Of a DNA stretch of 22,533 nucleotides, positions 1,892 through 21,986 are shown one piece after another. The position numbers and the translations under genes were made by a program. How positions within the stretch are numbered: position 1 is the stretch's first letter; each line of letters starts with the position of its first letter. Origin of the DNA: a virus; IMG/VR virus record IMGVR_UViG_3300044673_000561, positions 1 to 22,533 of that record; one strand, 5' to 3'. The notes beneath the pieces were generated by a model. It did no database searches. It was not told where the DNA came from and was given only the letters and a program-made list of their open reading frames with translations.

Positions 1892-2971
1892 TTATTTCTT
1901 TGCTGGTGGTAACAATGCAAACGGGTTTTTATCTTTTTTGCTGATATCGCTTTGCGGTTCAACAGTAAAAGACCCTTCAGGCACAAGGGTTATATCTGTC
2001 ATTTCGCCATCGAGTTCATTGTACGTTTTTGTCACCTTACTTGTAATATAATAACTATTACCTGTAATTCCTAATGTTTCCGACTGAAACAACACCGTTA
2101 CATTTTTTTCCCATAATGTCGCATCATAACTCCACCCATTGACAATACAATTTATGCCTATCGATCGTGCTCTCCGAATGGCACATTCCCATTCTGCGCG
2201 TTTCTTTGCTGTGTCCTTTGAGACAACCGATTCAGCAACAATGACAGTGGGCCGGTACCTTGGAATTAATGGATCCACCACAGAATGTCTTATTGCAGTA
2301 GCGCTCTTAGCAAAAATTGAATCGTTTGCCAAATCTTGACCAGTCACGATATATTTACTAAATCGTTCTTTTACCGACCTTTTTAATGATGCCTTGTATA
2401 TGTTTACCCCCTCTTTCAAACTCACGGGGATTCTATTCTTTCCAATTTCTCCAATTACAAGGGTTCCACTATTATCACAAACGATAATATGTCCACGCAA
2501 CCGGCAGGCTCGATCCATCGCTTCGAAGACCGTTTCACCGGGTTGTATTTTAAATTCTGAAAATACCTTACCCGTTTCCACCTCGACTTTCAAGTCAATT
2601 CCGAATGGTTTGCACAGTTTGCGTATAATTGTTTCTAATGATGCATTCTTAAACGAAGAAAAACTTTCTATTCCGCAATCGACAAGGTCACAGGTTTTGG
2701 ATCGGCCGGTAATTGTTGTAATCGATACATCGTCCGGGTGAAGATCCGGATCACAATCATCGATGTATCCCGTGAGTAATAATTTGCCTCCATAAGTAAT
2801 ACTACATGGCATGCCTGTGGTAATCGGCAAAAACTTTTCGTTTTTACCTGATGCATTAATCGCTTTAAAAGAAAAAGATCCGCAGATTGCTTCGATAGCG
2901 TCAACTAATTCAACTTCAGTCCAACCGGTGTATATTTGGCCATTCACATGTAATTGTACGTTTTTATTCAT
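1892..2971 (-). CDS. Baseplate hub protein, Mu gpP (gp44) type
   Basis: This gene encodes 359 aa from the chosen ATG, near the Mu gpP length. Family members form the hub that joins the tail tube to the spike. The N-terminus (QLHVNGQIYTGWTEVELVDA, then FSFKA) and the segment TGYIDDCDPDLHPDDVSI followed by TGRSKTCDLVDC are typical of the family. SVKERFSKYIVTGQ near residue 210 also fits. The frame stays open upstream to 3007, but that adds 12 residues (MFLRDIQSWWYQ) lying inside the end of the gpN-like gene. The ATG at 2971 gives the familiar N-terminus and overlaps the previous gene by only 8 bases. Its position between the gpN-like and spike genes matches Mu order. Confidence 0.88.
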   Translation of the reverse strand: MNKNVQLHVNGQIYTGWTEVELVDAIEAICGSFSFKAINASGKNEKFLPITTGMPCSITYGGKLLLTGYIDDCDPDLHPDDVSITTITGRSKTCDLVDCGIESFSSFKNASLETIIRKLCKPFGIDLKVEVETGKVFSEFKIQPGETVFEAMDRACRLRGHIIVCDNSGTLVIGEIGKNRIPVSLKEGVNIYKASLKRSVKERFSKYIVTGQDLANDSIFAKSATAIRHSVVDPLIPRYRPTVIVAESVVSKDTAKKRAEWECAIRRARSIGINCIVNGWSYDATLWEKNVTVLFQSETLGITGNSYYITSKVTKTYNELDGEMTDITLVPEGSFTVEPQSDISKKDKNPFALLPPAKK

Positions 2972-4115
2972 TTGATACCACCATGATTGGATATCCCGCA
3001 GGAACAAACCCAGGGTGTAATATTTTATTCCGCTTCAAAATCTCATCAGCCATATCAATGTTGCCATATAATTGATACGACAATACCATTGCCGGTGTGG
3101 GCTCATCTAATTGCACTGTGGATACCCTGGGATAATCAATAAATGTAGTTGCCACATAGTCGTTTACTGAAGATTTTAATTTGTAGAGGGCCTCATACAA
3201 ATTATCCGAAACAACAGCCTCGATACTTTCAATTGCTGTCGTTATTTTATCACTGTAAAGTATTGCATCATCGTAGGTAGTGAAATTGGTATTCAGCATA
3301 GTAGTGACAATCACGCCTGTAATTGCCACTTTGAGGAATGTATTTATATGATCATTATTTACAGTGCCGGTCAGCTCGATTTCCAGGCTTTCAAACAATT
3401 CCAGCAAATCGTCAATTTGTCCTACGCCGGCAGTCTCGTTATTGTTTGTTGTCAACAAAAGCAGGAGTCTTGTTGCTAATTCTTTTGGATCTGTAAGCAA
3501 TGATGCCAACTCAGATTCTACACTCGATAACACGCTTGCAAACGTGTCAACCGAGTTCATGAAGAACAATTTGTCCTGTATCTTTCCGGTAATATCTCTG
3601 CAATCAGACAATGCTTTTGCAACTAGAAACTGTGGTTTATTACTAAAGTTATAATTTTCAACAAACTCACTTTCCGTAGTGGATTGCAGATCTTCCGCTG
3701 CTACAACCACGGTTGCTTTCGTGTCGGTAATTCTGATTGGTTTATTATCACTTTCGCTGTACTCAACAAAAGTGAACGTAAACTTTGCTACACGAGTTTC
3801 CGAATCAACCAGCGTTGGTGCGAAATCATCGCAGGAAACCATCTTGCGGCCCATGTAAGTATTAACATACTCACCAGGCCCCTCAACCTCAGATGCAGCC
3901 TGCAGCGCGCGGATCTGCTCGATGTAATCATCTCCAATTACGTGCCCGTTGATAGTGAATTTCCGATCTTTACGCCCCAGATCAGCAATGTATGGGTTGT
4001 CTCTTGATGGCAATGACTTAGTGACAAGCCTGCGGCCAGTCGGTGCAGAAACCAACTCCTCAAAAAACGGCACACCTCGAAATGAGGCCTGGTGCAATTT
4101 GTCCGCTGAGCTCAA
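2964..4115 (-). CDS. DNA circularisation / tail protein, Mu gpN (gp43) type
   Basis: This 383-aa protein resembles the N-terminal domain of the Mu gpN family, which serves as a baseplate or tail component. The diagnostic start is ASFRGVPFFEELVSAPTGRR, followed by a DLGRKDRKFTINGHVIGDD-like segment and then VSCDDFAPTLVDSETRVAKF. The rest is helical and less conserved. The start is TTG at 4115 with AGGCGG upstream. It overlaps the tape measure stop as TTGA, and there is no better in-frame ATG before the conserved region. It is shorter than Mu gpN (about 490 aa), with the difference in the C-terminal half. The TTG choice is moderately sure and the family assignment is good. Confidence 0.85.
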   Translation of the reverse strand: MSSADKLHQASFRGVPFFEELVSAPTGRRLVTKSLPSRDNPYIADLGRKDRKFTINGHVIGDDYIEQIRALQAASEVEGPGEYVNTYMGRKMVSCDDFAPTLVDSETRVAKFTFTFVEYSESDNKPIRITDTKATVVVAAEDLQSTTESEFVENYNFSNKPQFLVAKALSDCRDITGKIQDKLFFMNSVDTFASVLSSVESELASLLTDPKELATRLLLLLTTNNNETAGVGQIDDLLELFESLEIELTGTVNNDHINTFLKVAITGVIVTTMLNTNFTTYDDAILYSDKITTAIESIEAVVSDNLYEALYKLKSSVNDYVATTFIDYPRVSTVQLDEPTPAMVLSYQLYGNIDMADEILKRNKILHPGFVPAGYPIMVVSNE

Positions 4116-9347: not shown

Positions 9348-9895
9348 TACACACTCTTTACGTAATCAAAAATCTTTTTTGCCCTTGTGTACCCGATTTT
9401 CGGTAACGCAACCAGGGCATCCATAGTTAAAGCTTTGAGAGACTCAATGGAAGTATATCCAGCTTTAACAAGCACATCAATCGTAGCGCTGTCAATTCCA
9501 GGAATTACGTACACACCGATGTTATCTGCCTTACCTGCCGTTTCATCAATAACCCGGAAGCTTGATGTATCAACGATTTCTTTTTCAGACTCATCGCTGT
9601 CAGTTGTTTCGTCAAGATCTTCTTCGTTATTGTCGTCTGTATCATCTGTTTTGCCATCGGCATCACTTTCACCTTTTGTTTCGTTAGCACCATTTCCGTC
9701 AGCCGGAGCTTCAGGAGTGAGCTTTTCGCCCTTATTTGCAGGAGCTTTGCTATCACTGGGCACAAACGACATGAACGGCTGCGCCAATCCTTGTTCGACA
9801 AGAGACTGACCCTCTTTATCGCTAACCGTTAAAGGAGTATCTTTTTTTACAAAGCTACCACCTCGCTTAATCTGTCTGGTCAATTTTATATTCAT
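9347..9895 (-). CDS. Head protein in the FI position with acidic linker and helix-hairpin-helix
   Basis: This 182-aa protein has three parts. Residues 1-44 form a small basic module (IKRGGSFVKKDTPLTVSDKE, then GLAQPFMSF). Residues 45-112 form a disordered linker very rich in D, E and T. Residues 122-182 form a helix-hairpin-helix unit with two hairpins, IPGIDSATIDVLVKAGYTSI and LPKIGYTRAKKIFDYV. Lambda gpFI, encoded at the same place, helps the DNA-bound terminase find the prohead and is also acidic. The HhH end suggests non-sequence-specific contact with DNA or another protein; this is inference. The ATG at 9895 has AGGA upstream. It follows a hairpin after the capsid gene. Confidence 0.7.
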   Translation of the reverse strand: MNIKLTRQIKRGGSFVKKDTPLTVSDKEGQSLVEQGLAQPFMSFVPSDSKAPANKGEKLTPEAPADGNGANETKGESDADGKTDDTDDNNEEDLDETTDSDESEKEIVDTSSFRVIDETAGKADNIGVYVIPGIDSATIDVLVKAGYTSIESLKALTMDALVALPKIGYTRAKKIFDYVKSV

Positions 9896-15466: not shown

Positions 15467-17314
15467 TCAGAGGGATGTGAGCCCGGCAGATATAACTTTT
15501 GCTTTTTTTTCAACGAGTTTATATGATGGTGAAAAGTAGGTATTATGTTGAATTAACAATTCAATATTCGGATTCAGAAATTTTACCGCTGCCAGTGCAC
15601 CGACAAAGCAGTCCAGGGTTTCATTGCGCTTTCCTGCTGGACAAAACCATGTCGACACTGGTAGGCCTGCCGCCATACGCGTTTTCTTGCGCTCTGCGGT
15701 CAATTGCTGAAAGTAGTTCTCATTGCAGGATAAAGGGAAATGTATATACCCTGGCCCAGGAGTTTTATTCTCAAGGTTCTCATAGATCCAGTCCTTTGCC
15801 TGATGAGTCCCGATCAAATACAAAAACCCTCCGGCCCGCCGGTTCTTTGATGCACCAGCTGCAATTGGTTTTCCCGCTCCATGCAACCCCTTTGTAGGGA
15901 ATATTCTGCGATGTTTACGAGTACTGCAAAACTGATATACTGCATCCGTACGGTGTCCCATCGAGTCTATACAAGCAGCAGCTACATTTAACCCATAGCC
16001 CGACTCTGATCGCCATTGTCTAAGTAGATGCTGGTCAACCAGCTGCCAGACATCATCCTGCTTGGTATCGCCCCATATAATAGAGTGGTCAATCACCCAG
16101 CATTCTCCTCGGGATCCCCATCCGATCGTAGATATTTCAACACGATCTTCATGAGTATCGCCCCCAGCAGTGAGAAGTACTGCACCTTTGGGCACTTCAG
16201 CGGGATATGCTTCGCATCGTTTCAAAATCTCTGCGCTGTCAATTTTAGCTTCAGTCTCGTCCCACTCTTCACCTATAACCGTGTTGATAAACACCTTTAA
16301 TTTAGCAGGATCCCCAACGGCTTTTAAAAACTGGTTAACCGCATCAATCCACGAAAACCATCCGAGTGGAGAGTAAAACGCGCTCAAGTGGAAGCCCGCG
16401 ACTTTGCTTTTAGGTTTATGTTTTATCCACATACCATGGTCAAGCATCCACGTTTTATGATACTCTTTTATTTTGTTGTCACAGTGAGTGCATCGAAGGT
16501 ATACGGAGTCCTCTATCAAATCACCATCGGAATCAGTTTTGTATTTGATATTTTCCCACAATATTATTTGTGGTTTTTTACACTTTGGACACGGCACATA
16601 ATAATAACGCTGATCTGACTGTTTGAATTTTTTCGCAATTTTGCTTTTACCGGCAACCGTAGGAGATGAGGCCCAATACTTCTTTTTTCGTGGAAAGTTT
16701 GCAGCACGTTTATCCAGGAGGTCGAACGGATCTCCCTGGCCATCAACATCATCAGGCCATATATCCACTTCGTCACCGTTTATATTTGGTGTTGACATCA
16801 TGCGCAAACCAACAGAGCTGTTAACACCGGTGATAATTATGCTGGATCCAGGGAAATCTTTGCGCATGATTGTGTTTTTTAAATCACCATCATTACGTTC
16901 CCGTACCTTTTCACTGAGAGCTTCACACGACGTTATGCCTGCTTGCAGGCGTGTGGTTGAATACAGTTTGGCCATCTCATTAGTAGGATATGCAGACAGC
17001 ATCGATCCCAGGCCATAATACGCAGTATACAACTGCCAGTTGATACCAATTTCAGTAGCACCTACCTGGGTGCCCTTCATAAATACAATTTCTTCAGTGT
17101 GCGACAACTGAGACAATTCGAAACTGATTTCTTTTGAATATGGTACGCGAGAGGTTCTCCATTGCCCAGGTTCCGGTGTGGTGCCTGATTTTAATACCCT
17201 ATGTTTATCAGCAAACTCATTAACAGTTTCTTTGGGAGGAGGCCGAAAACCGGAAAAGAACATATCCAGGCAAACAGCAACATTGTCTATAACCTCAAAA
17301 TCCGAAGTGACCAT
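15467..17314 (-). CDS. Terminase large subunit, GpA family
   Basis: This 615-aa protein compares with 641 aa for lambda gpA. It is the packaging motor and the nuclease that cuts phage DNA. A Walker A-like MKGTQVGATEIG lies at residues 79-90, and a Walker B-type region around INGDEVDIWPDD at 178-189. Two CxxC pairs (CPKC 242-245, CTHC 275-278) form a probable zinc site. The nuclease half has acidic residues in GGDTHEDRVEISTIGWG (D386), AACIDSMGHRTDAVY (D450) and GKRNETLDCFVGALAA (D568), the conserved places in this family. The ATG overlaps the small subunit gene by 20 bases. Confidence 0.96.
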   Translation of the reverse strand: MVTSDFEVIDNVAVCLDMFFSGFRPPPKETVNEFADKHRVLKSGTTPEPGQWRTSRVPYSKEISFELSQLSHTEEIVFMKGTQVGATEIGINWQLYTAYYGLGSMLSAYPTNEMAKLYSTTRLQAGITSCEALSEKVRERNDGDLKNTIMRKDFPGSSIIITGVNSSVGLRMMSTPNINGDEVDIWPDDVDGQGDPFDLLDKRAANFPRKKKYWASSPTVAGKSKIAKKFKQSDQRYYYVPCPKCKKPQIILWENIKYKTDSDGDLIEDSVYLRCTHCDNKIKEYHKTWMLDHGMWIKHKPKSKVAGFHLSAFYSPLGWFSWIDAVNQFLKAVGDPAKLKVFINTVIGEEWDETEAKIDSAEILKRCEAYPAEVPKGAVLLTAGGDTHEDRVEISTIGWGSRGECWVIDHSIIWGDTKQDDVWQLVDQHLLRQWRSESGYGLNVAAACIDSMGHRTDAVYQFCSTRKHRRIFPTKGLHGAGKPIAAGASKNRRAGGFLYLIGTHQAKDWIYENLENKTPGPGYIHFPLSCNENYFQQLTAERKKTRMAAGLPVSTWFCPAGKRNETLDCFVGALAAVKFLNPNIELLIQHNTYFSPSYKLVEKKAKVISAGLTSL

Positions 17315-17966
17315 TTACGAGATTCTCCAGACATGTTGACAGTTCACCGTCCAATATATCTTCAATTTCCTTTTTATTGAAAACCGCAGTCTCATCGGCT
17401 TTATATTCCTCGATATATGCTATAACCAGAGAATAGATAAGTGCTGAGACTCTGGGGGAAACTGTCAGTATATTCTGTTTAATATCACTCGATAACCGAA
17501 ATAACTGGGATTTTATTTCATCGACATCTACCAGTTGATTGAGTAACTTTTTGTATTCTACCTCAGCGGTTTTAGCTTCCCACATTTCCCGCACTGCGCG
17601 TGCTTTACTATACATTTCTCCATGCTGCCCAGTTGCATTTTTGGAAGTTCCACCACCCTGCGATGCTTTTGGTGGATCCGGAAAAAGTGTAACCTGTTCA
17701 GAATCGGGTGTGGACGGTGTCGGACTGAAAGGTGATGGTTCATCAATAATACCCTTGTCTTTTCTTGTCGCTGTTCTTTGCTGTGTGGGATCGGTATTAT
17801 TATTCCAGGCAACGTCCGCATCAATGGAATTAACGAATTTTAAAATATTTTTTCCTTGTCGTTCCTCTTTAGCAATACCTATTCTACCTGTGGCAATCGC
17901 TTTCTGTACAGCTGCAAGCGATACTCCGCGATGCCTGGCATATTGGCGAAGCGACATTAATGGCAT
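17295..17966 (-). CDS. Terminase small subunit, Nu1-like
   Basis: This 223-aa protein compares with 181 aa for lambda Nu1. It recognises the packaging site and recruits the large subunit. Residues 4-30 (MSLRQYARHRGVSLAAVQKA, then IATGRI) form the winged helix-turn-helix of Nu1-type proteins. A Pro/Ser/Thr-rich linker spans about 55-105. The C-terminal half is helical (VREMWEAKTAEVEYKKLLNQ, VDVDEIKSQLFRLSSDIKQN), typical of the dimer and large-subunit binding part. ATG at 17966 directly follows the ParB-domain stop; a second ATG three codons on is an alternative start. It lies just before the large subunit gene. Confidence 0.9.
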   Translation of the reverse strand: MPLMSLRQYARHRGVSLAAVQKAIATGRIGIAKEERQGKNILKFVNSIDADVAWNNNTDPTQQRTATRKDKGIIDEPSPFSPTPSTPDSEQVTLFPDPPKASQGGGTSKNATGQHGEMYSKARAVREMWEAKTAEVEYKKLLNQLVDVDEIKSQLFRLSSDIKQNILTVSPRVSALIYSLVIAYIEEYKADETAVFNKKEIEDILDGELSTCLENLVNGHFGF

Positions 17967-18584
17967 TTATAATCCAAGCCTTTTAATTATTTCCCTTGCA
18001 GCAGCTTCCCTGTTTTCGCTATCAAATTTTATTGTCTCTGAAAACCACCTGTCAAAGCGCCCTTGTTTAACTGCAAACTTGAACTTTCCAAACACCAAGG
18101 CAACCTCTTTTTCTTCCTTAACCTTTGAAGTTTTGATAGTGTCATCTGTAACTGAAAACGGATCATCTTCGAGAAATCCAGATATTTCTTTTTCTGAAAA
18201 ACTGGTGAGGGACAAATCGTATGCCGTCTCATTGAGCTCAGCCATTATCTCTGCAATCAATTCAGCGTCATACCCATAGTCCTCACCTATTTTATTATCA
18301 GCAAGAAGGTATGCTTTCGCATCTTCAAGTGATAGATGATCAGCTACAATTACCGGCAGATGGGTCATCTTCAGTTTTTTTGCAGCCAACAGCCTGCCAT
18401 GGCCAGCAATAATCCCGAGTTCTGAGTGCACCACTATCGGATTTATGAAACCAAACGATCTAATAATTTTACATAATTTGTCGATTTGCTCCTGGGGATG
18501 AAGCTTAGGATTTTTTTCATACGGCCGCAATTTTTCAATAAGCCACTGCTCAACTTTGTCTCCGACAACCTGTATTCCTGCCAA
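17967..18584 (-). CDS. ParB N-terminal domain protein
   Basis: This 205-aa protein has a ParB/Srx-type domain at about residues 12-105: VEQWLIEKLRPYEKNPKLHP, then FGFINPIVVHSELGIIAGHG, RLLAAKKLKMTHLPVIVADH and AYLLADNKIGED. The GHGR motif (61-64) takes the place of the nucleotide-binding GERR box of chromosomal ParB. The C-terminus FGKFKFAVKQGRFDRWFSET with a final IIKRLGL resembles a tail seen in phage-encoded members. These often sit beside terminase or DNA methylase genes, but no methylase domain is fused or adjacent here. The start is TTG with AAAGGTGG six bases upstream. A role in packaging or partition is possible but unproven. Confidence 0.82.
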   Translation of the reverse strand: MAGIQVVGDKVEQWLIEKLRPYEKNPKLHPQEQIDKLCKIIRSFGFINPIVVHSELGIIAGHGRLLAAKKLKMTHLPVIVADHLSLEDAKAYLLADNKIGEDYGYDAELIAEIMAELNETAYDLSLTSFSEKEISGFLEDDPFSVTDDTIKTSKVKEEKEVALVFGKFKFAVKQGRFDRWFSETIKFDSENREAAAREIIKRLGL

Positions 18585-18635
18585 GACTGACCACCTTTCG
18601 TTAAAACGTGCCGATTCTGATCATATTTCGCATGT

Positions 18636-18649
18636 GGGGTGACAACCCC
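18636..18649. other. GC-rich inverted repeat in the gap upstream of the ParB-domain gene
   Basis: The 189-bp gap 18585-18773 contains no convincing gene. It holds GGGGT-GACA-ACCCC, a 5-bp inverted repeat of G and C in AT-rich surroundings, 50 bases upstream of the TTG start. No T-run follows on either strand, so it is not an intrinsic terminator. A short hairpin or a protein or nuclease site are both possible. No clear sigma-70 promoter is visible in this gap. Confidence 0.4.
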
Positions 18650-18773
18650 GTGATTTTGTACCATACACTGAAAAGGGAGGCATCGCATGTTACCCGTTTC
18701 TCTATACATTTAAAAGGACCCAAAGGTCTGATACTCTTTACATATATGCATAAAAAGTCTTTACACACAGCAC

Positions 18774-19466
18774 TTATCGAGCTGTTTCTATTGCGTACTT
18801 TAGTGCCTCTTCAAAGTTTCCTTTGAATACTCTACCCGCTGTCATGTCGATTATTTGTTCCGGATCATACCTCTCATCATACAACAATGAGTCAACTATG
18901 TAGAAAATGGGTAGTGCTATACCGCTTTGCCTGAAGAAAATTATTTTCTTGTTCCTGGATACGTACCATGATTTTCTCTTCTTTCCTTTTGAATATTGCT
19001 GAGTATCAAACGTTGCCTGTAAGCCAGACAGCATCTTGCTTATTTCGGATCTTTTTACGTTGCCATATTGGTCAACGTTTGCATAAGACGATGGGACAAT
19101 GAATGAGTTTGCGGGTATCAAACCTTTTTGTCTCAGCAGTACTTCAGACCTTTTTGCAGGTCTTGATCCACCGAACGCATGATGTGAAATTACTTTTGCA
19201 GATGGTGTACCCTTCGATGCCCAGGCTTTGTACTCAAGTGATGCAAACAGATTGCTCTTTGTTGACTTTTTAACATATAGTGCATTTGTAGTCCAGTTCG
19301 TTGGTCTGTCAAAAATTAAAGGGAGTTCTTTTTTTATTTCTGCATTACAATCAAATGCGGTTTTATTCAATGCTCTTGAGGTCGCAAAAGGTATTTGACT
19401 GTTGAATGTGGCTTTTAAATCTCTAATACAACCGTCAACATCAACCTTAACATGAAAACCCTGCAT
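18774..19466 (-). CDS. Conserved phage protein of unknown function, first gene of the late block
   Basis: This 230-aa protein contains segments I recognise from uncharacterised phage proteins: SQIPFATSRALNKTAFDCNA near residue 25, then RPTNWTTNALYVKKSTKSNL, SHHAFGGSRPAKRSEVLLRQ, FIVPSSYANVDQYGNVKRSE and a C-terminal region with VFKGNFEEALKYAI. Some relatives are annotated as minor tail or virion proteins. The many Lys/Arg residues and lack of a signal or membrane segment fit a virion or DNA-associated role. GGAG lies 8 bases before the ATG. It heads the operon that includes the terminase genes, which is an odd place for a tail component. Confidence 0.6.
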   Translation of the reverse strand: MQGFHVKVDVDGCIRDLKATFNSQIPFATSRALNKTAFDCNAEIKKELPLIFDRPTNWTTNALYVKKSTKSNLFASLEYKAWASKGTPSAKVISHHAFGGSRPAKRSEVLLRQKGLIPANSFIVPSSYANVDQYGNVKRSEISKMLSGLQATFDTQQYSKGKKRKSWYVSRNKKIIFFRQSGIALPIFYIVDSLLYDERYDPEQIIDMTAGRVFKGNFEEALKYAIETAR

Positions 19467-19574
19467 ATTTTTTCTCCTTCAAAAATGACCACACAAAACG
19501 CAATATAATTGCATAAATAGCAAAAGGTTACATCCTAACCTCAAATAAAATGATATTATTAAATGTCGTAACCG

Positions 19575-20062
19575 GTTGCAGAATTTCGCAACCTTAACAA
19601 CATTAAAAATCATATACTTACAGACGTACTATTTTACAACCAATAATTCGCAACATTTTTGCAACAAAAACACAAACAGATAACTATATGTTTTTTAATA
19701 AGATAGAACTTTATATGGTAATTGTTGCAGAACTGTGGAGTTATAGATATCGTAGTGAACGAAGAACGGTTAAGGCAACATGTGAGATGTAAACACGCTG
19801 TCTTATTTACATCTGCTCTTAAGTGGGAAAATGGAGAAATGTCTTTTTGTAGAAGAGAGAGCTATATTTCTTGCAACATCGCACGTGTTAATAACTAAGT
19901 CGTTTAAAATCATGGGGTTTGCTGTTTGTTTTTGGCTTGCAACCACTGCAACATGCCGCAACAAGCACTTTTTCTGATGGATCGAGAAATATCTTTTGTT
20001 AAATCATATAATAAGGAAATTCCAAATTATATGAAAAAAATTATTAAAGAATTAAATGTTGC
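19575..20062. repeat. Cluster of eleven GCAAC/GTTGC sites upstream of the late block
   Basis: GCAAC occurs on the plus strand starting at 19588, 19650, 19661, 19775, 19873, 19939, 19948 and 19958. GTTGC occurs at 19575, 19724 and 20058. Only about one copy would be expected by chance in this length. Many extend to TTGCAACA or TCGCAACA. Local spacings of 11, 9 and 10 bases put sites on one face of the helix. The pair at 19575/19588 is a GGTTGC...GCAACC inverted repeat. The surrounding 19467-19976 stretch is AT-rich and otherwise has no gene, apart from an AGGTTA/TAACCT inverted repeat at 19525-19541 without a T-run. Confidence 0.6.
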
Positions 20063-20246
20063 AAAAATTGGTATAACGTCTGGTTTAATACTTTCAGGAA
20101 CAGGGAATTTTGCGTCACTCCCTGCATTGGAGTTGTCGGATCTTCGCGAAAGAGATAATCAGTTATCTCTAAATCTTATCAGAACCGCCAGAAATGGCCC
20201 AATTCGAGAGGATCTCACATTGGTCCGAGCATTTGGTCGTATCTAA
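19977..20246 (+). CDS. Small hypothetical ORF, doubtful
   Basis: This is the only substantial plus-strand frame not covered by a minus-strand gene. From ATG 19977 it encodes 89 aa: MDREISFVKSYNKEIPNYMK, then a helical basic part with KKIIKELNVAKIGITSGLIL, then SDLRERDNQLSLNLIRTARN and a final REDLTLVRAFGRI. The frame is open back to a TTG at 19926 and includes an ATG at 19953, but those upstream codons consist of the GCAAC array, so I prefer the later start. No start has a good ribosome binding site. I recognise no family. It may be a remnant or chance frame. Confidence 0.3.
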   Translation: MDREISFVKSYNKEIPNYMKKIIKELNVAKIGITSGLILSGTGNFASLPALELSDLRERDNQLSLNLIRTARNGPIREDLTLVRAFGRI

Positions 20247-20600
20247 CTCTATTTAGGGGCAGTTTTAAATATAGATGGCAAAAGTTGTAAAGGTTACTTA
20301 GGGGTATCGTGTTTCGCTATGTCTTAATTTTTATTGCACAAAAAAAGAATATAATAAAATAGGAATTTCACTTGCTTGTTTGCACTTTTAGAAACATTAA
20401 ACAATTATAACGCATTGTATTTAAACAAGATTATTTTCAGAATTATTCTTTATATTGTTCTAAAGAATTGTTTAAAATAAACATGTTATATTAAAAAATC
20501 ACATAAATATTTGATGGTGAAGGCCCGAAGCCGAGTATTTGTTAAATTTGCATGTCCGTGATGATTTTTAGGGAAGGATCTAAGTTTGAAGCAATAGATA
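20247..20600. other. AT-rich intergenic stretch without a recognised gene
   Basis: This region of about 350 bases is strongly AT-rich. I see no frame with a ribosome binding site, no tRNA and no riboswitch. It contains TATAAT-like boxes but no -35 partner at good spacing, and a small GTTTA/TAAAC inverted repeat near 20470. Confidence 0.5.
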
Positions 20601-20642
20601 AAAAGAAAAACAGCCTGATACGCTTAAATTCGTACCAGGCTG
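20601..20642 (-). terminator. Intrinsic terminator after the 46-codon gene
   Basis: On the minus strand CAGCCTGGTACG pairs with CGTATCAGGCTG (12 bp with one G-U pair) around an 8-nt loop, followed by TTTTTCTTTTT. This is a textbook rho-independent terminator ending the small minus-strand gene 47 bases upstream. Confidence 0.92.
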
Positions 20643-20688: not shown

Positions 20689-20829
20689 TCACCTGCATCG
20701 CACAAGTATCCAAAAGCATTCCTTGCCGTAGTTTTCGGCATAGATCTTTTGCTTTGATCTCCAGTGGGTGAAATACTTTACTGGTATCCATCTATAGCCG
20801 GATGGTGCGGCTTTTGTTGGTTGTCCCAT
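20689..20829 (-). CDS. 46-aa basic aromatic small protein, unknown
   Basis: The ATG at 20829-20827 is preceded by GAAGGAGG at ideal distance, and the TGA is at 20691-20689. The protein begins MGQPTKAAPSGYRWIPVKYF and continues THWRSKQKIYAENYGKECFW, ending ILVRCR. It is rich in Lys/Arg and in Trp/Tyr/Phe and has no signal or membrane segment. I do not recognise a family. The strong ribosome binding site, the intrinsic terminator downstream and another terminator upstream show a separate short transcript. No clear promoter is seen in 20830-20935. A short palindrome TATATT-GT-AATATA and an ACAACATT box like the repressor half-sites lie there at about 20876-20900. Confidence 0.72.
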   Translation of the reverse strand: MGQPTKAAPSGYRWIPVKYFTHWRSKQKIYAENYGKECFWILVRCR

Positions 20830-20973: not shown

Positions 20974-21609
20974 TTATTTAATCATTTTAATAAGTTCATT
21001 TTCATTCCGTAATCTGTATTGTGTTGCTTCTTTTGAAATTAAAAACGTTTTACTTATTTCTGATGCAATCCTATCTAAAGCATAGTCAAGATATAAATGC
21101 CGAGCCAGGCCATTTCGCTTTGCATCCTCGATTAATGACGATACGGTCGAAATTGCTTCTTCAAATTTAACTTTGAGTTTTTCCGCAGGTAATAGTAAAA
21201 AATTTGCGAATTTGTTTCCTTGAGTTTCTAATTTATCATACTCATTAAGATCGACTCCCTTATAAAAGTTTATCCAATCATCAATTGAATTAAAGTCAAT
21301 CTCTTTAAATATATTGCGATGAAGAACAAAATGTCCGATTTCATGAGATAATGAAAACCTATAGCGGTTTTCAAAAAAATCTGCTAATTCTCTGTCGATC
21401 ACGATTTCAGTAAAGTCCCCAGTTGTCCATGCATCAATATCAAAATTTTTCCTAAGACCTGGCACAGAAATAATATTCATTTCCAACTTAAACTCAATAA
21501 TTTGTTCAATAGGAAAAATAAAACTACTCTGACTGTCATACTCAGCTGCAAACTTAGCAGCTGCATTTTTAATATCTGCATCTGACAAAAAAGGGACTTT
21601 CAGGGACAT
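20974..21609 (-). CDS. ImmA/IrrE-family metallopeptidase
   Basis: This 211-aa protein belongs to the COG2856 zinc protease family, whose phage and mobile-element members cleave or inactivate a partner XRE repressor. The zinc motif is RFSLSHEIGHFVLH with HEIGH at residues 89-93. The third ligand is probably E128 in LETQGNKFANFLLLPAEKL, a pattern typical of the family. Residues 1-60 include the usual FPIEQIIEFKLEMNI region. The ATG overlaps the repressor stop by one base (TAATG) with AGGAG upstream, so the two are translated together, and an intrinsic terminator follows. It would allow induction by repressor removal; the target is inferred. Confidence 0.92.
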   Translation of the reverse strand: MSLKVPFLSDADIKNAAAKFAAEYDSQSSFIFPIEQIIEFKLEMNIISVPGLRKNFDIDAWTTGDFTEIVIDRELADFFENRYRFSLSHEIGHFVLHRNIFKEIDFNSIDDWINFYKGVDLNEYDKLETQGNKFANFLLLPAEKLKVKFEEAISTVSSLIEDAKRNGLARHLYLDYALDRIASEISKTFLISKEATQYRLRNENELIKMIK

Positions 21610-21986
21610 TAGATACTCCTAATCTGATCCGCAAGGTCAATGAGTTTATCATCCGATACTTTATCACCCCTTAATGTCCTAAACACAAAGGGCAACTTAG
21701 CCATTAATTCTTCATTACTTAAAATCGACTCAGGTAGTTTTCCTGCACACGCAGCCGCCAGATCAAAAAAGTGATTCCACTCAACTGACCCTTCCATAAT
21801 CCCCAAACATTCAGCATACTTCTTTTGTTTTTCATATGCTCCTGGGGGAGCTGATAGACCACGTTCAACCTTTGATATATTACCCGGGTCATACCCATAA
21901 AGCTTACAAAACTCCCTTAACGTTACACCAGCCTTAAGACGAATACTTTGAACGAATTCACCGAATGCCTTGAATACTGTGTCCAT
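21609..21986 (-). CDS. XRE-family repressor
   Basis: This 125-aa protein has an N-terminal helix-turn-helix of Cro/CI type at residues 8-60: FGEFVQSIRLKAGVTLREFC, then KLYGYDPGNISKVERGLSAP. The C-terminal 60 residues (LPESILSNEELMAKLPFVFR, then TLRGDKVSDDKLIDLADQIR) form a helical partner or dimer domain seen in XRE proteins paired with ImmA. It has no LexA-type self-cleavage domain, consistent with control by the adjacent ImmA. It is transcribed from a consensus promoter overlapped by palindromic sites, so autoregulation is likely. It could be the prophage repressor or the regulator of a separate element; no early gene it might control is in the window. Confidence 0.9.
   Translation of the reverse strand: MDTVFKAFGEFVQSIRLKAGVTLREFCKLYGYDPGNISKVERGLSAPPGAYEKQKKYAECLGIMEGSVEWNHFFDLAAACAGKLPESILSNEELMAKLPFVFRTLRGDKVSDDKLIDLADQIRSI

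Follow-up and report, generated by a model that had tools for sequence, protein, structure and literature searches.

Conserved TGCAACA repeats before the late operon of an uncultivated phage: a probable iteron array of a replication origin

In lambda, the R sites of cosB are bound by Nu1, and cosB is adjacent to cosN, towards TerS. Other short repeats are read by replication proteins: the helicases SaPI Rep and SCCmec Cch2 use their C-terminal domain to recognise short iterons located downstream of the helicase gene (PMC7581432). At the origin of pRN1, an element past the 3' end of the primase-helicase gene orf904 is required for replication (PMC4234260).

The repeat array described here belongs to a linear viral contig of 22,533 bases, hereafter the window, which is incomplete and has a GC content of 42%. 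Its late genes lie on the minus strand and begin with a minor tail protein gene (phrog_1924; 18774-19466), a gene for a ParB_N-domain protein (17967-18584), the small terminase gene TerS (phrog_57; 17295-17966) and a large terminase gene TerL of the GpA type (15467-17314), followed by gpW-like, portal, capsid and sheath genes. The initial annotation, which placed the array ahead of two genes, the terminase pair, a joiner and the portal, thus had the gene order right. Upstream of the minor tail gene, a gene-free, AT-rich stretch holding the array (19467-20610) extends to a terminator-like hairpin (20611-20642, minus strand), the apparent end of the upstream transcription unit. Beyond the hairpin, on the array's upstream side and also on the minus strand, lie a conserved ORF of 46 amino acids whose function is unknown (20689-20829) and an HTH/IrrE-like peptidase pair (20974-21986). 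We found no RNA element or tRNA in the array region, and GC skew was uninformative, as it follows gene strand.

The array itself (19575-20062) consists of 11 exact copies of GCAAC/GTTGC, eight on the plus strand and three on the minus strand. Dinucleotide shuffles of positions 19467-20100 give an expectation of 1.15 copies, hence a z of 9.8, while the 99th percentile of the per-shuffle maximum over all 5-mers is 6.4. The GC content of the array region is 34%, against 42% for the window. The initial claim of 11 copies far above expectation in AT-rich DNA is therefore borne out, and the locus shows two traits of iteron origins, a short sequence repeated several times in non-coding DNA and, by composition, an AT-rich flank. 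When the sites of the window are pooled with those of its relative L002 (see below), the consensus extends to TGCAACA, with T at -1 in 81% and A at +5 in 71%. Two arrangements stand out: a triplet, GCAAC-N4-GCAAC-N5-GCAAC, on the plus strand (19939-19962) and an inverted pair, GGTTGC-N6-GCAACC (19575-19592), in which the GCAAC starts are 13 bp apart. The array had also been described as helically phased. Steps of 9, 10, 11 and 13 bp are indeed present (19939/19948/19958, 19650/19661 and the inverted pair at 19575/19588), but the array as a whole shows no significant phase at 10.5 bp (Rayleigh p about 0.25).

Could such a cluster arise by chance or from composition, with no function attached? 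When all 5-mers are counted in 400-bp windows, a few cluster about as strongly by z, or more so, in other parts of the window, for example AAGCT (z 6.8 at 9351), and density alone is for this reason weaker evidence than conservation. Conservation could be assessed in L002, the only close relative found, whose proteins are 90% (TerL), 82% (TerS) and 84% (ParB) identical to those of the window. Scans of viral contigs with the minor-tail, TerL and TerS sequences gave no other close relative; a genome scan with the window TerL gave no match, and one with a wider TerL alignment retrieved relatives with at most about 43% identity. L002 has 10 GCAAC sites in the same gap, among them the same triplet with identical N4 and N5 spacing and the same terminal inverted pair, of which the GTTGC...GCAAC core is kept. 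Across positions 19500-20070, eight of the 11 pentamers are identical in L002, compared with 59% identity for the other bases. The initial annotation had asked for the motif to be counted in relatives, and in this one the array proves to be kept site by site. Given this, and an excess far beyond shuffles of its own region, chance clustering is the least probable explanation we considered, and the data support a functional, sequence-specific array.

The 46-residue ORF and the HTH/IrrE-like pair are also kept in L002. The minor tail genes (18774-19466 in the window, 3436-4095 in L002) share only their first codons and then encode different proteins. This looks like an allele swap, located between the conserved array and a conserved cos-like block. 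Since the minor tail protein differs beyond its first codons, the conserved array has a replaced gene as its neighbour.

With its clustered short sites, in direct and inverted orientation and spaced by about one turn, the array resembles arm-type sites, and the phage may be temperate, so that it might belong to an attP or transposition-end region bound by an integrase or transposase. We regard this as very improbable: no integrase or transposase was recognised and no tRNA was found in the window, the array and both its flanks are continuous and syntenic in the two contigs, and the genome scans with TerL revealed no integrated copy.

The reading first put forward was that of a packaging site; TerS (phrog_57) would then bind the GCAAC array as a pac or cosB-like region of terminase recruitment. 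A separate conserved element argues against it. A cos-like element, GGGTCCTT-N-CGGGTAA (18690-18721, minus strand), is located between the minor tail gene and the ParB gene; it probably is the packaging end site and lies outside the array. The pattern GGGTCCTT-N-CGGGTRA is also present in L002 (4157-4188), and the linear records of phages JBD68 and Haddon stop in the interval that separates the minor tail gene from TerS, at most 2 bases after GGGTRAT. The JBD68 record, which ends in GGGTCCT-N-GGGTAAT, has the cos-like element at this end. In 1.03 Mb of prophage loci with GpA terminases, the pattern GGGTCCTT-N-CGGGTRA has four matches, in distant prophages (L482, L483, L521 and L524), all of them 0.6-1.1 kb upstream of TerL and on the TerL strand, and GGGTCC peaks 500-1000 bp upstream of TerL. 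Record ends and conservation thus make 18690-18721 the probable cos. Its conserved flank is on the TerS side, where a highly conserved non-coding block containing GGGGTTGTCACCCC (18589-18659, minus strand) separates it from ParB; this block is a possible candidate for TerS recognition, in the manner of cosB. Dense GACCC/GGGTC arrays also occur about 1 kb upstream of TerL in three alphaproteobacterial prophages (L517, L518 and L530), and are possibly related to the GGGTCC part of the cos-like element. A lambda-type cosB lies between the cleavage site and TerS. The array does not fit this layout, because it is 0.85-1.37 kb from the probable cos, past the minor tail gene and on the wrong side.

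We then looked for the same arrangement in other phages by scanning viral contigs for GCAAC-N4-GCAAC-N5-GCAAC, with a permuted 5-mer as control (about 120 stretches each). Dense arrays, with 15-23 copies per 500 bp and a good share of them on each strand, were present in 10 of 119 stretches and in none of 120 for the control; two of the ten (L108 and L017) are close relatives. The window array, with its 11 sites, is smaller than the strongest of these. Eight of the ten are located 0.7-3.5 kb upstream of TerL, counting only TerL genes supported by a family search or by seeds of the first round, and this favours a packaging role. A further point on the same side is a Magnetococcales contig with the TerS family of the window (L538), which carries a tandem GTTGCAAC array with a unit of about 30 bp (1046-1317) and a second array, GGTTGAC/GTCAACC (1430-1620), both ahead of ParB-methylase, TerS and TerL genes. 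No primase is in view near the GTTGCAAC array, where a TerS or some other function is possible.

The motif also has another companion. Arrays of medium density border a primase-helicase gene at its 3' end in eight loci identified by Pfam or PHROG (L016, L020, L050, L069, L101, L103, L309 and L382), and similarity to these eight gave eight more. The array is on the 3' side of the primase-helicase in all 16 loci, eight of which supplied the query proteins, compared with one of 120 control loci. One of them (L020) combines both associations, with primase-helicase, array, TerS and TerL in this order. The extended motif TGCAACR is common to the window, the TerS-side arrays and the primase-side arrays. 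It recurs with unrelated TerS families and, in G010, beside a primase gene far from TerL, which again speaks against packaging. A literature search on the TGCAAC motif in phages returned nothing relevant, with thin coverage of subscription journals.

A motif-independent test started from 80 loci fetched by similarity to AAA_25 primase-helicase proteins only, of which 76 had enough downstream DNA. One reservation is that the five query proteins had been picked from phages with arrays; the remaining loci had not been picked in this way. Within 600 bp of the gene's 3' end, the top two pooled 5-mers were TGCAA (5.9-fold) and GCAAC (2.8-fold), and at least eight GCAAC copies were present in 18 of the 76 loci. 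In other loci of this set, the dense arrays at this position consist of different 5-mers. A two-strand GGTTA array likewise occurs at the 3' end of the Prim-Pol primase gene of phage KT1 (L010, about 2950-3300).

Which protein reads the motif? In phages with AAA_25 primase-helicases the array frequently has the primase-helicase on one side and TerS on the other, so position cannot tell. The repeat sequence is more informative: 19 TGCAA arrays go with initiators having an RDTR-type C-terminus and four CCTTC or ACCCT arrays with the KGN type, with no crossovers (Fisher p 1e-4, a post hoc value that ignores relatedness). Two phages (L402 and L418) have TerS N-termini that are 83% identical, yet differ both in initiator C-terminus and in motif. 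In G006 and G007 the array is upstream of TerS, unlinked to the initiator gene, and the initiator is of the RDTR type. Matrix correlations (Mantel) of motif similarity with initiator or TerS similarity were not significant. Taken together, these comparisons suggest that the repeats of the AAA_25 family change along with the C-terminal domain of the initiator, not with TerS, in agreement with published biochemistry on SaPI Rep and Cch2 (PMC7581432). Nearly identical TerS N-termini with different motifs are hard to reconcile with TerS as the reader, and the packaging proposal is thus not supported: the array is probably not the packaging site, and we hold recognition by TerS to be unlikely.

A phage regulator acting on the GCAAC sites, as an operator or activator array controlling the downstream late operon, is about as unlikely, if marginally less so, and together with TerS binding it is the main rival to an origin. 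The array is directly upstream of the late operon, and XRE and IrrE-like genes are nearby. Against this, a promoter scan put promoter-like sites in the array region at chance level, and regulation leaves the recurrence of the motif at primase-helicase 3' ends unexplained.

A replication origin, mentioned initially as an alternative, is the best supported reading, owing to the presence of the motif at primase-helicase genes and its correspondence with the initiator C-terminus. We therefore favour, with somewhat better than even confidence, an iteron array belonging to the replication origin of this phage. The T-GCAAC-R motif, its occurrence on two strands, the AT-rich setting and the place before the late operon all fit an origin; for this particular phage, the link is drawn from motif and position only. 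We infer the existence of a matching initiator, its binding to the array and a start of replication there. This initiator would most likely be a primase-helicase whose gene lies outside the fragment. It would bind the TGCAACA sites via its C-terminal domain, and its oligomers, assembled on this two-strand cluster, would melt the AT-rich flank for the primase to start synthesis there. The gene adjoining the array encodes the minor tail protein, not an initiator. Neither the window, an incomplete fragment, nor the L002 record, searched with PF13481, PF06048 and PF05272 and also incomplete, yielded a recognised initiator. This weighs against an origin, as do L538, with the same TerS family and no primase in view, and the number of sites in the window array, below that of the strongest arrays.

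The original packaging-site proposal can thus be corrected, and one uncultivated phage receives two assignments, a probable origin at 19467-20610 and a probable cos at 18690-18721. The mechanism proposed for the array, an iteron origin, is already known; the correspondence between motif and initiator is the more interesting lead. It suggests that, for phages throughout a large primase-helicase family, origins may be predictable from sequence; this would aid origin mapping and the understanding of origin compatibility between phages. More tentatively, and with confidence somewhat short of even, TGCAACR may represent a widely shared origin specificity across primase-helicase architectures (AEP+AAA_25, PrimPol+VapE, DUF927 and DnaG-like), set by the C-terminal domain of the initiator and separable from the initiator gene. 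Origins could then be found at the boundary between replication and terminase genes, with the window array as one unlinked example.

How does this locus compare with the systems described so far? Like lambda cosB, the array consists of repeated short sites near terminase genes, but it is 0.85-1.37 kb from the cos-like element and on its other side. The pRN1 origin uses a stem-loop instead of iterons and has no motif in common with the array. In phage ZRG1, which shares the gene order of the window, a GTTAGC array on two strands comes right before the minor tail gene (L005 987-1358, about 25.6-26.0 kb in the phage): the position is the same but the repeat sequence differs. At the origins of SaPI Rep and SCCmec Cch2, as in the window, a short motif (5 nt for Cch2) is repeated several times in non-coding DNA; their iterons, however, are directly downstream of the helicase gene, whereas the window array adjoins a minor tail gene and its presumed initiator is off the fragment. 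A further likeness is with the putative origins downstream of AEP/AAA_25, VapE and DUF927 genes in other phages (L020, L069, L101, L103, L309, L382 and others), themselves assigned from sequence, which share TGCAACR on two strands in non-coding DNA. These arrays are linked to the initiator gene, while that of the window is unlinked, as in G006 and G007.
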